Shown here: positions 8,688 through 46,473 of the stretch, piece by piece
How positions within the stretch are numbered: the stretch's first letter is position 1
Layout: every line of letters starts with the position of its first letter
From: Thalassococcus arenae
GTDB taxonomy: Bacteria; Pseudomonadota; Alphaproteobacteria; Rhodobacterales; Rhodobacteraceae
NCBI RefSeq assembly: GCF_019104745.1
Contig: NZ_JAHRWL010000001.1
Coordinates: 1,717,001 to 1,781,000, forward strand
Direction of reading: 5' to 3'
Length of the DNA stretch: 64,000 nucleotides
The notes under the pieces: model-generated
Seen by the model: the letters and a program-made list of their open reading frames with translations, nothing else
Told to the model about the DNA's origin: nothing
Databases searched by the model: none
Program-made: the position numbers and the translations under genes

Positions 8688-9874
<1,187 letters not shown>

Positions 9875-9916
9875 GGTCCGTGCAGTTGCCGCGGACCACG
9901 GGATCACGGACAGTGG

Positions 9917-9950
9917 AGAAGGGCGTCCTTGCGGGCGCCCTTCTTGTATC
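9917..9950 (+). terminator. Intrinsic terminator after tuf1
   Basis: A 9-bp stem AGAAGGGCG/CGCCCTTCT (9917-9925 with 9936-9944) with a 10-base loop, followed by a short T-containing tail. It separates tuf1 from the convergent small exported protein. Confidence 0.7.
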
Positions 9951-9979
9951 GACGGTCGGACGAGGGGCCGACCCCGGCG

Positions 9980-10201
9980 TCAGTTGAGGATCGACCGGAT
10001 CTGGCCGCTTTTCTCGCTGTTGGTGTCGCCGGAATGAACGATCGAATTGATCGTGGCGACTTGTGCGTTGCTCAGGCCGGAGAAGTCGGCGCTCGGCACC
10101 AGCAACTGCGCTTCGGGCGACACTTCGGTCTGGGTCATTGCCTGGGCTGCGCCGGTCAGGGTGGCAAGGGCGATCGCGGTGATTGCGAGGGTCTTTTTCA
10201 T
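9980..10201 (-). CDS. Small exported protein, unknown function
   Basis: A 73-residue protein with a clear Sec signal peptide (MKKTLAITAIALATLTGAAQA) and a mature part of about 52 residues with no cysteine. It includes LVPSADFSGLSNAQVATIN and a polar C-terminus. The ATG at 10201 is chosen for the signal peptide and a preceding GGACCACCAG stretch. Longer open frames upstream lack homology signals. The mature part resembles small periplasmic proteins found widely in Rhodobacterales; no function is known to me. It is convergent with tuf1. Confidence 0.7.
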   Translation of the reverse strand: MKKTLAITAIALATLTGAAQAMTQTEVSPEAQLLVPSADFSGLSNAQVATINSIVHSGDTNSEKSGQIRSILN

Positions 10202-10637
10202 CTGGTGGTCCTTTCTGTGTGTGGTGCGGGCAGCGCCCGCCTTGTGATGTCTTGGCTGTCTGGCTGTTGCCGACACCAGACAAGCTAGGAAGGCGACCCG
10301 GCAGTTTGAAATCACGGAAACTCGCATCCGGCTCACACGGATTTGCCCTTGAATTTGAACGTTGAACGCCGGGAGTTGTGCGGAATTTCACAACCTTGGT
10401 GCGGCTCAAGCCGGCAAGCCGATTTCGCCGGCGGCGGCGGTCCGGCGTCCGTGCATCCGCGCGACCCGAACGCCGTCATTTCGCACGGTCAACAGTTTGT
10501 GACCCGGATTTTTCGGGCCGATGTTTCAGCGGCCTCGCCGGCGCGTGAACCGACCGGATGCGATCCGCGGGCGAAGGCGGCGCAAACTGTGCCGCGAACC
10601 GGGGGAAATACCCGTCGGGGATGGCGCGAAACGGCTC
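10202..10637. other. Intergenic region without recognised gene
   Basis: 436 bases between the small exported protein and the tRNA-Trp promoter. It presumably holds the promoter of the exported protein on the minus strand. Overlapping short open frames show no start-site or protein-family support. No repeat or stable long hairpin was noticed. Confidence 0.6.
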
Positions 10638-36161: not shown

Positions 36162-36515
36162 TCAGAGCGGCACGTCGTCATAGCTGCGGGCCTGTCCGGT
36201 CTGCGCTTGTTTCAGCGCATCCCCGGTCGCTTCGGACATCATCTTGAACAGGTGCGCCGCTTCTTCCGAGTATTGCTTCATCGCGGTCTGGTAGAATTCG
36301 GACTGGATTTTCATCAGTTCCGCGGGGTTCTTGCAGCTGAGGATGGCGCGTTGCGTTTCCATGTCCTGCTGCAGCCGTTTCATCACGAATTCGGCGCTTT
36401 CGGCCATGATGTCGTACCAGGCATGCATCACCGTCGGGCTGACCGCCTTCATCGCGGCGGTCATCGCGGTGGCGCCGGTTTCGGTGTCGGTTTTCGGTTT
36501 GGTGGTCTTGTTCAT
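36162..36515 (-). CDS. Phasin-family protein
   Basis: A 117-residue, mostly alpha-helical protein with phasin_2 pattern (SPTVMHAWYDIMAESAEFVM, KRLQQDMETQRAIL, then MKIQSEFYQTAMKQYSEE). Phasins coat polyhydroxyalkanoate granules; in this case a granule or general surface role is only inferred. The ATG at 36515 is chosen for the AAGGGAGA ribosome site and domain start; the open frame extends far upstream without homology. It lies on the minus strand, convergent with rplW, between rplW and rplB. Confidence 0.85.
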   Translation of the reverse strand: MNKTTKPKTDTETGATAMTAAMKAVSPTVMHAWYDIMAESAEFVMKRLQQDMETQRAILSCKNPAELMKIQSEFYQTAMKQYSEEAAHLFKMMSEATGDALKQAQTGQARSYDDVPL

Positions 36516-36690
36516 GTCGGCATCTCCCTTGAAAGCCGTTTGCGGGCACGCGCGACAGCGCGACCGGAAACCGCGGGCATCATACTCCCCGAACGGGAAC
36601 CGGGCCTTGATCTGGATCGTTCGGGCAGTGCACTTGACCGGGGCGAAACCCGGTCGGGTCGTGGTCTTTGCCCGAACCCCCGCGAAAGCC

Positions 36691-39108: not shown

Positions 39109-39522
39109 ATGCTGCAACCAAAGCGCACGAAATTCCGCAAGATGCACAAGGGCCGGATCCGCGGCGAAGCCAAGGGAGGGTCGGATCTGAACTTCGGCAC
39201 CTACGGCCTCAAGGCGACCCAGCCCGAGCGCGTCACCGCGCGCCAGATCGAAGCCGCCCGCCGGGCCATGACGCGCCATATGAAGCGTCAGGGCCGGGTC
39301 TGGATCCGGATCTTCCCCGATACCCCGATCACGGCCAAGCCGATCGAGGTGCGGATGGGTAAGGGCAAGGGTTCAGTCGACCGCTGGGCCTGCAAGGTCA
39401 AGCCGGGCCGGATCATGTTCGAGATCGACGGCGTCGCCGAAGACATCGCCCGCGAGGCGCTGCGCCTGGCCGCGATGAAGCTGCCGATCAAGACCCGCGT
39501 CGTGGTCCGCGAAGACTGGTAA
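39109..39522 (+). CDS. rplP: 50S ribosomal protein L16
   Basis: L16 contacts the A- and P-site tRNA. The 137-residue protein begins [19 protein letters not shown] and has [20 protein letters not shown] and [19 protein letters not shown], with normal length. A strong terminator follows; rpmC (L29), which normally comes directly next, is 1.7 kb away. Confidence 0.99.
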
Positions 39523-39608
39523 CGGTCGAAAACGCGACAGCGTTTTCTGACTGGTGCGGTGTAGGCAAAATCGCAGATTTTGTCCGGGCCGCACAGAGTA
39601 GACAAAAG

Positions 39609-39637
39609 AACCCCCGGCCGCGCGCCGGGGGTTTTTC
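39609..39637 (+). terminator. Intrinsic terminator after rplP
   Basis: A perfect 10-bp stem AACCCCCGGC/GCCGGGGGTT (39609-39618, 39624-39633) with loop CGCGC and a T-run (TTTTTCGTT). Confidence 0.93.
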
Positions 39638-39691
39638 GTTGCGGCGCGGCGCGGTAAACCCGGCCTGACCCCCGTAAACAGGATCGCCCGG

Positions 39692-40309
39692 ATGACCACG
39701 ATGAAATCCCTCTTCGCCACCCGCCTCTACCACGCGCGCCTGAGCGATCACGGTGCGATCGACACGGCGGAATTGGAAGCCTCGTGCTATTCCATCGCCG
39801 AGGATGACGAGGCCGGGCAGGACTGGTGCGAAACCGAGGGCTATCCCGGCTATACCTCGTATGCCTCGCTGACCGATCTGCCCTGGCGGTTCCCGATCTT
39901 CGCCGATGTGGTCAAGGCGCTGGACAAGCACGTGGCCGCTTTCGCCGTGGATCTTGAATTCGACCTGGGCGACAAGGGGCTGGTTCTCGAGGATATCTGG
40001 ATCAACATCCTGCCCGAGGGCGGCATGCATTCCAGCCACATCCACCCGCATTCGGTGATTTCGGGCACGACCTACGTGGCGATGCCCGACGGCGCGAGTG
40101 CGCTGAAGCTGGAAGACCCCCGCCTGCCGATGATGATGGCTGCGCCGACCCGCAACAAGGGCTGCCGCGAGGAGTTGCGCAGTTTCGTCTACGTCAAGCC
40201 GCAGGTGGGCGATGTATTGCTTTGGGAATCCTGGCTGCGCCACGAAGTGCCGATGAACATGTCCGAGGACGACCGGATCAGCGTCAGCTTCAACTACAGG
40301 TGGGACTAG
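39692..40309 (+). CDS. 2OG-Fe(II) oxygenase-like protein (TIGR02466 type)
   Basis: A 205-residue protein of the TIGR02466/2OG-FeII_Oxy_5 family, predicted non-haem iron dioxygenases of unknown substrate. The iron site is suggested by [18 protein letters not shown] (about residues 111-128) and the distal His and Arg in [20 protein letters not shown]. The ATG at 39701 ([10 protein letters not shown]) is an equally possible start. It lies between the rplP terminator and rpmC with a hypothetical gene, so it is one of several genes inserted in the ribosomal cluster. Confidence 0.82.
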
Positions 40310-40380
40310 ACGCGTTCCTGTCTGGTCGCGGCACGCCCTTGTCTCTTTGCCACGGACAACGCGGGGATATCGACATTTCG

Positions 40381-41037
40381 GTGGTTCAGTCAGTCCGGCG
40401 GGCGTTCGAAGCCCAGGTCCCCCGCAAGGTGGTACGCGATTTGTACAACCGGGTTCGTTTCGGCGATCTGGCGCCGCTGTCGGACGCGGCGATTTTCGTC
40501 GATGCCGAAACCGTCGTCGACCGGTACGACCATGACCGGGCCGGTCGTCGTTTCCGGCGGCAGGACAGCGGAGCGGTGATCGGCGGCGACTGGGATCAAT
40601 TCCGGTCCGATGTCGAGGCGGACACGAAGCTGGTCAGTTGCCGGATGCGGTACGAGGGCGGGGCGGAATGGGCAGACACGCCGGTCTACCAGCGCATGCT
40701 GGCCGAGATCGCGCGCGGCCATGACCCCGACGGCTGCGCGACCGAGACGGCGCTGCAGGCGCGTTATGCCGAACTGGACCGGATCTTCGAGGAAACCCGG
40801 AAACGCGGCCGCTTGTTGCGGGCAAGCGAAACACCCCAGGCGTATCGGCGGGAGCATGGCGGCATTTTCCTGCATGTCGCACGGGACGGCACCTGTTTGC
40901 GCGGCGGCGGCGGCGCACACCGCTTTGCTATCGCCAAGATCCTGCGCCTGACCGCGATGCCGGCGCAGATCGGCGTGGTCCATCCGCAGGCGGTGGTGGA
41001 CGGCCAGGTCGCGCGCCTGATGGCTGCGGCGGCGTGA
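40381..41037 (+). CDS. ParB/sulfiredoxin-like hypothetical protein
   Basis: A protein of about 218 residues with no certain family. The C-terminal part has ERREHGGIFLHVARD-like strand followed by CLRGGGGAHRFAIAKILRL (near residues 175-195), which resembles the GGxHRLAIA motif of ParB-like/sulfiredoxin-fold nuclease domains; similar proteins are found in surface-polysaccharide clusters and phages. A GTG at 40381 (VQSVRRAFEA) is a plausible start; a TTG at 40339 is an alternative. No good ribosome site is seen for either. It follows the oxygenase by 71 bases. Confidence 0.6.
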   Translation: MVQSVRRAFEAQVPRKVVRDLYNRVRFGDLAPLSDAAIFVDAETVVDRYDHDRAGRRFRRQDSGAVIGGDWDQFRSDVEADTKLVSCRMRYEGGAEWADTPVYQRMLAEIARGHDPDGCATETALQARYAELDRIFEETRKRGRLLRASETPQAYRREHGGIFLHVARDGTCLRGGGGAHRFAIAKILRLTAMPAQIGVVHPQAVVDGQVARLMAAAA

Positions 41038-41081
41038 GCGCCGCGCCAGGCGGTGCTTTCTGCCGCGCGGGTTATTGGGGC

Positions 41082-41110
41082 TTGCTTTCGCCGGGTATCC
41101 GGACTAACAG
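41082..41110 (+). promoter_or_regulatory. Possible promoter of the rpmC-rpmD (spc) unit
   Basis: TTGCTT (41082-41087), 17 bases, TAACAG (41105-41110), C before the -35, 91 bases before rpmC. Confidence 0.45.
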
Positions 41111-41201
41111 GGCGCCTCATTCACGGACTCCACCGGAATTCTGGTGACCCTGCGATTCGTGGGCAGGGGCCAACCGGTGATGTTGACAGAAGGAAAAGGC
41201 G

Positions 41202-41411
41202 ATGAACGCCAAGGAACTCCGTGACAAGACCCCGGACGAACTCCGGGACCAGCTTGTCGCTCTGAAGAAAGAGGCCTTCAACCTGCGCTTCCAGCAGGCC
41301 ACCGGCCAGATGGAAAGCACCGCCCGCATGCGCTCGGTGAAGCGCGACGTGGCACGGGTCAAGACCATCCTGAACGAAAAGGCCGCAGCCGCGGCCGGCG
41401 AGAAGGCGTAA
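41202..41411 (+). CDS. rpmC: 50S ribosomal protein L29
   Basis: L29 lies beside L23 at the tunnel exit. The 69-residue helical protein has [20 protein letters not shown] and [21 protein letters not shown] follows GAAGGAAAAGGCG. First ribosomal gene after the rplP break. Confidence 0.99.
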
Positions 41412-45554: not shown

Positions 45555-45589
45555 AAGCGCCCCGCGGCTGGACCGCCGGGCGCTTTTTT
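45555..45589. terminator. Intrinsic terminator after rpmD
   Basis: Outer stem AAGCGCCC/GGGCGCTT (45555-45562, 45578-45585) and inner stem GCGG/CCGC, then a T-run to 45589. The convergent FkbM gene's stop codon (45589-45591) touches the T-run, and A's upstream could serve as a U-tract for the opposite strand. Confidence 0.9.
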
Positions 45590-46473
45590 CATGTGCCGCC
45601 CGCGATGCCGAGGGCGCGGCAGATATGCGCCGGGCAACCGGGCGAGATGGCCACGTAGTCGTGCATGGGGTGTTCGGGCCGGTCGGAAAGCGCAAGCAAT
45701 CGGACCGCCAGAAATGTCTTCGGCAGCCCGAACAGGCGATAACCCCGTTCGGCCAGAAATCGAAGGCTGTCGGGATAGTGCGGCGATACGGGGCGGTGCT
45801 CTTCCAGCAGCACGACATGCGGCGGCGTGGTTTCCAGCACCGTCCGCGCGCCTTTGAGCACCTCGCCTTCGAACCCTTCGACGTCGATCTTGACCAGCGT
45901 TGCCGGAGTTGGCCCGAAAGCCGCAGCCAGCCGGTCCAGGGTTTCGACGGGCACGCGCTGTCCGGCGCCTTCCGTGCCGGCCAGGCTGGCGGCCCCGGCA
46001 TTGTCGGGCGGCACGTGCAGCACCAGTTCGCCGGGTTCGGCCGCAAGGGCAACCGCATGCAACACGACATGCTCCAGGCCGTTGCGTGTCAGGGACTGCA
46101 ACAGGTAGCGCCTCAGACGATCTTGCGGTTCAAAGGCATGGACCCGCCCGCCGCTGCCCACGCGGTCTGCCATGCGCAGCGTCACAAGGCCGAGATTGGC
46201 GCCGATATCCAGCGCTGTGTCGCCCGGGCGCAGGCACCGATCCACCACCCACGACACCTTGCGGTCCAGATCGCCCACGTATTTCATCGCCCGCGCCACA
46301 TAGTCGTTTGCGGGGACAAGCGCCGGACCGCCGATCACCCGCGCCCAGACATCGCGGCCATGACCCGCATCGATCGTCCGAAACACGACAGTGTTCGCGA
46401 AAGTTCCGCATCCGGACACAAAGGGATAAAGGCGGCCGGCCCTTTGGGCGAGGCTATCAATCAACGGCGTCAT
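45589..46473 (-). CDS. FkbM-family methyltransferase
   Basis: A 294-residue SAM-dependent methyltransferase of the FkbM type, usually acting on sugar or polyketide hydroxyls. The SAM site is GDTALDIGANLGLVTLRMAD (about residues 84-103), HAFEPQ follows, and KIDVEGFEGEVLKGA is the FkbM signature near residue 195. The substrate is unknown; no sugar pathway is nearby. It lies opposite the ribosomal genes, between rpmD and rplO. The ATG at 46473 gives a full domain. Confidence 0.9.
   Translation of the reverse strand: MTPLIDSLAQRAGRLYPFVSGCGTFANTVVFRTIDAGHGRDVWARVIGGPALVPANDYVARAMKYVGDLDRKVSWVVDRCLRPGDTALDIGANLGLVTLRMADRVGSGGRVHAFEPQDRLRRYLLQSLTRNGLEHVVLHAVALAAEPGELVLHVPPDNAGAASLAGTEGAGQRVPVETLDRLAAAFGPTPATLVKIDVEGFEGEVLKGARTVLETTPPHVVLLEEHRPVSPHYPDSLRFLAERGYRLFGLPKTFLAVRLLALSDRPEHPMHDYVAISPGCPAHICRALGIAGGT

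Follow-up and report, generated by a model that had tools for sequence, protein, structure and literature searches.

Why does a gene for a 2-oxoglutarate (2OG) oxygenase stand between two ribosomal protein genes, and does its place tell us what the enzyme acts on? The question is raised by a 64,000-nucleotide stretch of Thalassococcus arenae DNA (the window), part of contig 1 of a 3.7-Mb genome, in which four genes follow each other on the + strand: rplP (uL16; 39109-39522; PF00252, 182.9 bits; TIGR01164, 197.3 bits), an oxygenase gene that we call OX (39692-40309), a gene that we call PB (40339-41037), and rpmC (uL29; 41202-41411), which served as the marker gene in our gap surveys. That an oxygenase of the TIGR02466 type and a protein with a GGxHRxAIA motif lie between rplP and rpmC had been proposed in an earlier note on this DNA, and coordinates, profile scores and motif confirm it.

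OX is a predicted iron-dependent oxygenase

The 205-residue OX protein is a full-length member of TIGR02466 (286.3 bits against a cut-off of 62.5, covering model positions 1-201), as the earlier note had assigned it; it also matches PF13759 (122.6 bits, cut-off 27) and, in PHROGs, phrog_81, a phage 2OG oxygenase family. Invariant residues among 56 aligned sequences include H116, H118, D142, H184, R195 and N201. The usual order of residues in Fe(II)/2OG oxygenases is HxD...H...R; what is invariant in the 56 sequences is H116-x-H118...H184, with no conserved HxD or HxE among them, so that the HX(D/E)...H pattern of the superfamily is absent. The order and spacing of the residues suggest that H116, H118 and H184 form a putative three-histidine iron site. 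After the last conserved histidine stands an R-x-S (R195 in 56/56 sequences, S197 in 54/56), a motif that binds 2OG in such enzymes, with the arginine contacting the 2OG carboxylate. A search of the open-access literature for three-histidine 2OG enzymes returned nothing on the TIGR02466 family.

The AlphaFold2 model of OX (pLDDT 94.0), a structure prediction of the kind that the earlier note had called for, has a double-stranded beta-helix fold and matches many solved members of the Fe(II)/2OG oxygenase superfamily. The best matches are two orthologues, 2rg4 from Oceanicola granulosus HTCC2516 and 3bvc (Ism_01780) from Roseovarius nubinhibens ISM, both TIGR02466-type proteins with 80-81% identity to OX and an rmsd of 1.1-1.2. 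Among the next best matches are prolyl hydroxylases: P4H of Pseudomonas putida (Z 16.3 and 15.9 for 4j25, P4H alone, and 4iw3, the complex with EF-Tu; 14-17% identity) and PHD2 (Z 16.1; 10-13% identity), which superpose on OX with an rmsd of about 3.0 over 164-169 residues. Both P. putida P4H and PHD2 carry HxD at the place where OX has its invariant HxH. On the basis of the model, we regard OX as a predicted iron-dependent oxygenase with a prolyl-hydroxylase-like fold.

The structures 2rg4 and 3bvc were released in 2007-2008 and deposited as uncharacterized proteins, and in the available parts of PMC3532365 and PMC4508852 they are called uncharacterised, with the place of their genes unmentioned. 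Both source genomes have this gene in the rplP-rpmC gap, codirectional with rplP at one locus (L289) and opposite at the other (L307).

Median identity to the window sequence is 77.7% for OX (68 loci), 77.1% for L29 (64 loci) and 83.8% for S17 (64 loci); OX is thus conserved to the level of L29, which argues that it is under selection. The window genome has a second TIGR02466 gene on contig 1 (313781-314353, - strand; loci L004/L234), distant from ribosomal genes; it scores 96 bits, is 29.5% identical to OX, and reads HTH at the position of the HxH motif. In another genome (G135, locus L236, about 9748-10300), the OX of the gap has no match after residue 178 and lacks R195, and is perhaps a decaying copy.

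OX occupies the rplP-rpmC gap across the bacterial family

A TIGR02466 match was found in 203 of 295 genomes of the same family, over the cut-off in 197. We determined the place of OX in the 150 best-scoring of these 203 genomes; L16 was found in 145, and in 125 of them OX lies at most 6 kb downstream of rplP, 68 times codirectional with it and 57 times opposite. Because these 145 genomes come from the top of the score range, OX may be less often so placed in the remainder; of the 53 lower-scoring genomes only G135 was placed, and here too OX is in the gap. The earlier note had thought the place of the oxygenase worth notice, and this is well borne out, since it is conserved through the family and far from chance. 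Among the other 20 of the 145 genomes, OX and rplP share a contig in a different arrangement in 6, two of which retain OX in a gap widened to 15-17 kb; in 14 they are on different contigs. When 12 of these 14 were examined, OX adjoined rpmC in four, and for the other eight no cluster ribosomal gene was found near OX in the retrieved stretch.

A second sample of 80 named loci (the best 80 of 490, most of them picked for the presence of OX, and possibly overlapping in species with the first) gave a similar result: OX is between rplP and rpmC in 65, codirectional with rplP in 39 and opposite in 26, while in 10 it is beside one of the two genes, the other being beyond the stretch, and in 5 beside neither. 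Six loci show a break or rearrangement of the ribosomal cluster at rplP/rpmC (L237, L243, L246, L247, L099 and L104), and in all of these but L104 OX is still near rpmC.

OX is present in 63 of 72 measurable rplP-rpmC gaps. With OX the gap has a median length of 2458 bp and a minimum of 922 bp; in 30 genomes lacking OX it is 28-290 bp in 20 and 409-1015 bp in 6, and in the other 4 rpmC is not inside the 1.5 kb examined. When other-frame readings of OX are excluded, the next commonest gene of the gap occurs in 10 of 72 genomes; it encodes a protein of about 250 aa and is opposite to rplP in 10/10 (L095, L096, L098, L100, L119, L136, L147, L154, L156 and L163).

In the open-access literature, which covers few subscription journals, we found no description of the placement of OX in the ribosomal cluster. 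The TIGR02466 family and its fold are already known, but judging from that search the following are apparently undescribed: the conserved place of the gene, in one direction or the other, throughout the bacterial family, the rule of two borders and its control (see below), and the origin of the two solved proteins from this gap. An enzyme with a long-solved structure thus has a near-constant home, independent of direction, in the ribosomal clusters of this family, and is conserved like a ribosomal protein; its residence turns the function of the enzyme into a clear and testable question for laboratory strains such as Roseovarius nubinhibens.

OX and the ribosome

One answer would be that OX hydroxylates a component of the translation apparatus (L16 or some other ribosomal protein, or else EF-Tu), a job that its place would reflect. 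Its family-wide residence in the ribosomal cluster fits such a role, as does a fold nearest to prolyl hydroxylases, one of them solved with EF-Tu. Like YcfD/ROX, OX is a 2OG-type oxygenase, and its neighbour here is the gene for L16, complete with the target arginine: Arg82 of the window's L16 is, going by the conserved RMGKG, what we take to be the arginine targeted by YcfD in E. coli. Hydroxylation of Arg81 of E. coli L16 by YcfD is described in the available part of PMC4295552. Also in favour, the window genome lacks the YcfD-type domain, PF08007 (JmjC_2), and of 65 same-family genomes tested only 5 have it over the cut-off. OX itself does not match PF08007 (profile search, E up to 1), in keeping with the earlier note's remark that its family differs from that of YcfD, and it is a single 205-aa domain without the dimerisation and winged-helix domains that the available parts of the literature give for ROX.

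Set against this are several observations. PF08007 is absent also from 8/8 genomes lacking OX, so OX does not simply replace YcfD; we looked for an inverse pattern of occurrence, found none, and rejected the replacement. The target arginine, Arg82, is invariant in 252/252 copies of L16 (several loci per genome), 39/39 of them from loci without OX. Facing opposite to rplP in 57 of the 125 genomes, OX is not bound to the direction of the L16 gene. Finally, OX orthologues (match above 200 bits) from other families, in 15 genomes, were examined together with the 14-20 kb around them; none of the 15 has one of the 21 cluster ribosomal genes in that stretch, and the place is therefore a trait of the bacterial family rather than of the enzyme. 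The 84 proteins near OX at these 15 loci and at 8 same-family loci include no recurring translation family; the most frequent neighbour family occurs in 3 of the 84 (25 of 102 families among the matches listed), and recurring neighbours outside the ribosomal cluster are seen only in a trio of genomes from one other family. The link between oxygenase and L16 that the earlier note had found tempting is thus not supported; going by these sequence comparisons, a ribosomal substrate is possible but not favoured, and we consider it unlikely that OX is a hydroxylase of the translation apparatus.

Comparing 62 genomes with OX in the gap and 9 without, we found 20 columns in ten ribosomal proteins that differ, five of them in L16. 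The most striking of them, the change of L16 Lys128, a usually fixed lysine, to M/G/L/T, was considered as an OX-linked change and rejected, as it follows one clade (L088, L090, L091, L092, L104, L105 and L164) and is confounded with kinship: the clade that lost Lys128 includes the OX bearers L104 and L164, while OX-less rows outside it keep the lysine. In a wider set with several loci per genome, 31 of 39 OX-less loci retain Lys128, as do 208 of 213 others. For now, kinship explains the changes at residue 128; Ser25, Met54 and Ala121 of L16 are changed together with Lys128 in this one clade, which is rich in OX-less genomes.

A bolder form of the same idea, which we put forward only as a distinctly improbable speculation, is that OX might be a second, unrelated hydroxylase of the translation apparatus, giving the Rhodobacteraceae a control of ribosome or elongation factor that depends on oxygen and 2-oxoglutarate, with the place tying gene dosage to the ribosomal block. 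If this were true, an enzyme with a prolyl-hydroxylase fold and a three-histidine iron site would play in the Rhodobacteraceae the part that falls to YcfD or P4H elsewhere among bacteria, and a fixed place near rplP, in either direction, would keep the dosage of its gene tied to that of the ribosomal block.

The gap is a boundary between transcription units

Comparison of junction lengths indicates that the rplP-rpmC gap (39523-41201) takes up inserts at the boundary of two transcription units: rplP is the final gene of the upstream unit and rpmC the opening gene of the downstream one. An intrinsic terminator follows rplP on the + strand (39606-39636; a 12-pair hairpin, then a T run), and the region around it (39598-39645) has a folding energy of -25.6 kcal/mol. 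As this terminator is nearly symmetric, it may work from the other side too. A sigma-70 consensus scan, the only scan used, found no promoter for OX in the window.

Of the 13 junctions compared within the cluster, just two reach lengths of more than 500 bp: rplP-rpmC (68 of 73, in a sample mostly chosen for OX) and rpmD-rplO (37 of 47). The other 11 are without inserts. Fourteen cluster genes were tested for a terminator hairpin within the following 200 nt. For rplP one was found in 47 of 82 loci and for rpmD in 36 of 69; in contrast, L18 is followed by one in 1 of 72 loci and the remaining 11 genes in none, and mononucleotide shuffles gave 0/405. The rplP terminator is present in OX-less loci as well (6/12). 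Since terminators and inserts coincide at these two junctions, we conclude that the cluster consists of separate transcription units whose two borders take up inserts. This picture explains why foreign genes are found at only two of the 13 junctions examined in the ribosomal clusters of the group.

In the window itself no terminator was found after rpmD, though a gene for an FkbM-family methyltransferase (45589-46473, - strand; TIGR01444, 104 bits) has been inserted in the rpmD-rplO junction and faces the opposite way to the cluster; in relatives, the inserts at this junction turn over rapidly. A third break in the ribosomal cluster of the window is formed by a phasin-like gene (36162-36677; PF09361, 50 bits) on the opposite strand, between rplW and rplB.

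The gap could, on this evidence, be a mere insertion hot spot in which OX is found by chance; as a border that accepts inserts, it has gained and lost many other genes. The rpmD-rplO junction serves as a control. No gene family is shared there by more than 2 of 37 genomes, as against OX in 63 of the 72 rplP-rpmC gaps, so the residence of OX is unusual even for such a boundary, and we think chance a rather poor explanation of it.

Orientation and descent of OX

We followed the history of OX on a ribosomal-protein tree (71 genomes, ten proteins), a quick tree with SH-aLRT support only and many weak forks. On it, the orientation of OX has changed at least 12 times, and absence of OX from the gap requires 7 changes (9 rows are without OX in the gap, one of them, L105/G246, with OX elsewhere). 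On a tree of OX itself, also quick and weakly supported, orientation requires 15 changes. Orientation is clustered on the ribosomal-protein tree, none of 200 shuffles giving as low a number of changes, and it is therefore inherited. Where OX is opposite to rplP, which is the case in about half of the genomes, co-transcription with rplP is excluded. Most copies of OX that lie elsewhere in genomes of the family branch close to the base of the OX tree, a position that fits entry of OX into the gap within the family, though it would fall short of proving a single entry.

Its many changes of orientation and the symmetric terminators nearby might suggest that OX is a cassette which a recombinase or inverted repeats can flip, but this is hardly credible given that orientation is inherited and that no long inverted repeats shared between gaps flank OX in the seven examined.

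We thus think it likely that OX was an early entrant into the gap, kept by descent for the enzyme's own value and not for co-transcription with rplP. OX would have entered the gap between the two transcription units early in the Rhodobacteraceae/Roseobacter group and would then have been kept in place by descent, although the data are compatible also with selection for the place. It would have been retained for the value of the enzyme to the cell rather than for transcription with rplP, presumably with a promoter of its own. Within the gap it has been turned round many times, and other genes, PB among them, have come and gone beside it. The enzyme would hydroxylate a protein or a small molecule, not specifically L16, using 2-oxoglutarate and the putative three-histidine iron site.

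PB and its other contexts

The open frame of PB as listed (40222-41037, + strand) overlaps OX; we place its start at a TTG at 40339, 29 nt past the OX stop, from which the protein (232 aa) aligns with its relatives across its length. In the C-terminal GGAHRFAIA stretch, G192, R195 and A199 are invariant among 21 relatives, and H194 and A197 are nearly so. Searches of Pfam, NCBIfam and PHROGs gave no convincing family match, the nearest in PHROGs being phrog_2938 (19.4 bits), a family of unknown function; ParB sequence families were not matched, and in Pfam only DUF7257 was hit, at 15.9 bits (cut-off 27). With the PB fold as query in Foldseek, the first 23 PDB matches are all sulfiredoxin or ParB-type proteins, the latter including KorB, which we take to be ParB-type; these matches are weak (best E 0.066, and 0.0064 in the viral library; best Z 4.8) but agree in kind. 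PB shares the GGxHR stretch with ParB and sulfiredoxin, and its fold may weakly resemble theirs. Sulfiredoxin has a cysteine at GGxHR, whereas the stretch in PB has none.

The earlier note had taken the oxygenase and this ParB-like protein as a pair. They are on the same strand and 29 nt apart in the window, and they are adjacent also in G002, G025 and G053, the only other genomes among those examined in which PB adjoins OX; these four genomes, however, group together on the tree, and PB is present in only 20 of 295 same-family genomes (23 places), compared with 197 of 295 for TIGR02466 over the cut-off, and is mostly found elsewhere, so that a working pair of oxygenase and partner is a very improbable reading. 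In the rplP-rpmC gap, PB was found in five genomes, the four above and G063. OX is a lasting resident of the gap and PB a rare passenger, and the two are not one unit. The earlier note had held that frequent occurrence of the pair far from ribosomal genes would speak against its idea; this is seen in an altered form, with OX as a rule away from those genes outside the family and PB mostly elsewhere.

In the wider class, 229 genomes other than the window's gave only two weak partial matches to PB. The tree of PB joins the copies of the gap and three from elsewhere in a single group (100/98), next to which stand two copies from the division/cell-wall cluster. This cluster, near murD and ftsW, accounts for 6 of the 10 places elsewhere that were viewed widely (8 further places were left out), and its murD-ftsW border seems to be open to inserts as well. 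We suggest that PB may be a migrating gene of another function, which would also enter the murD-ftsW region. The PB relatives near murD/ftsW (L251, L253, L254, L255, L256 and L257) are on the opposite strand where this could be clearly read. In Mameliella sp. MMSF_3455, PB is upstream of OX, and at 2 of the 10 widely viewed places it adjoins a sulfotransferase-like and a glycosyltransferase-like gene.
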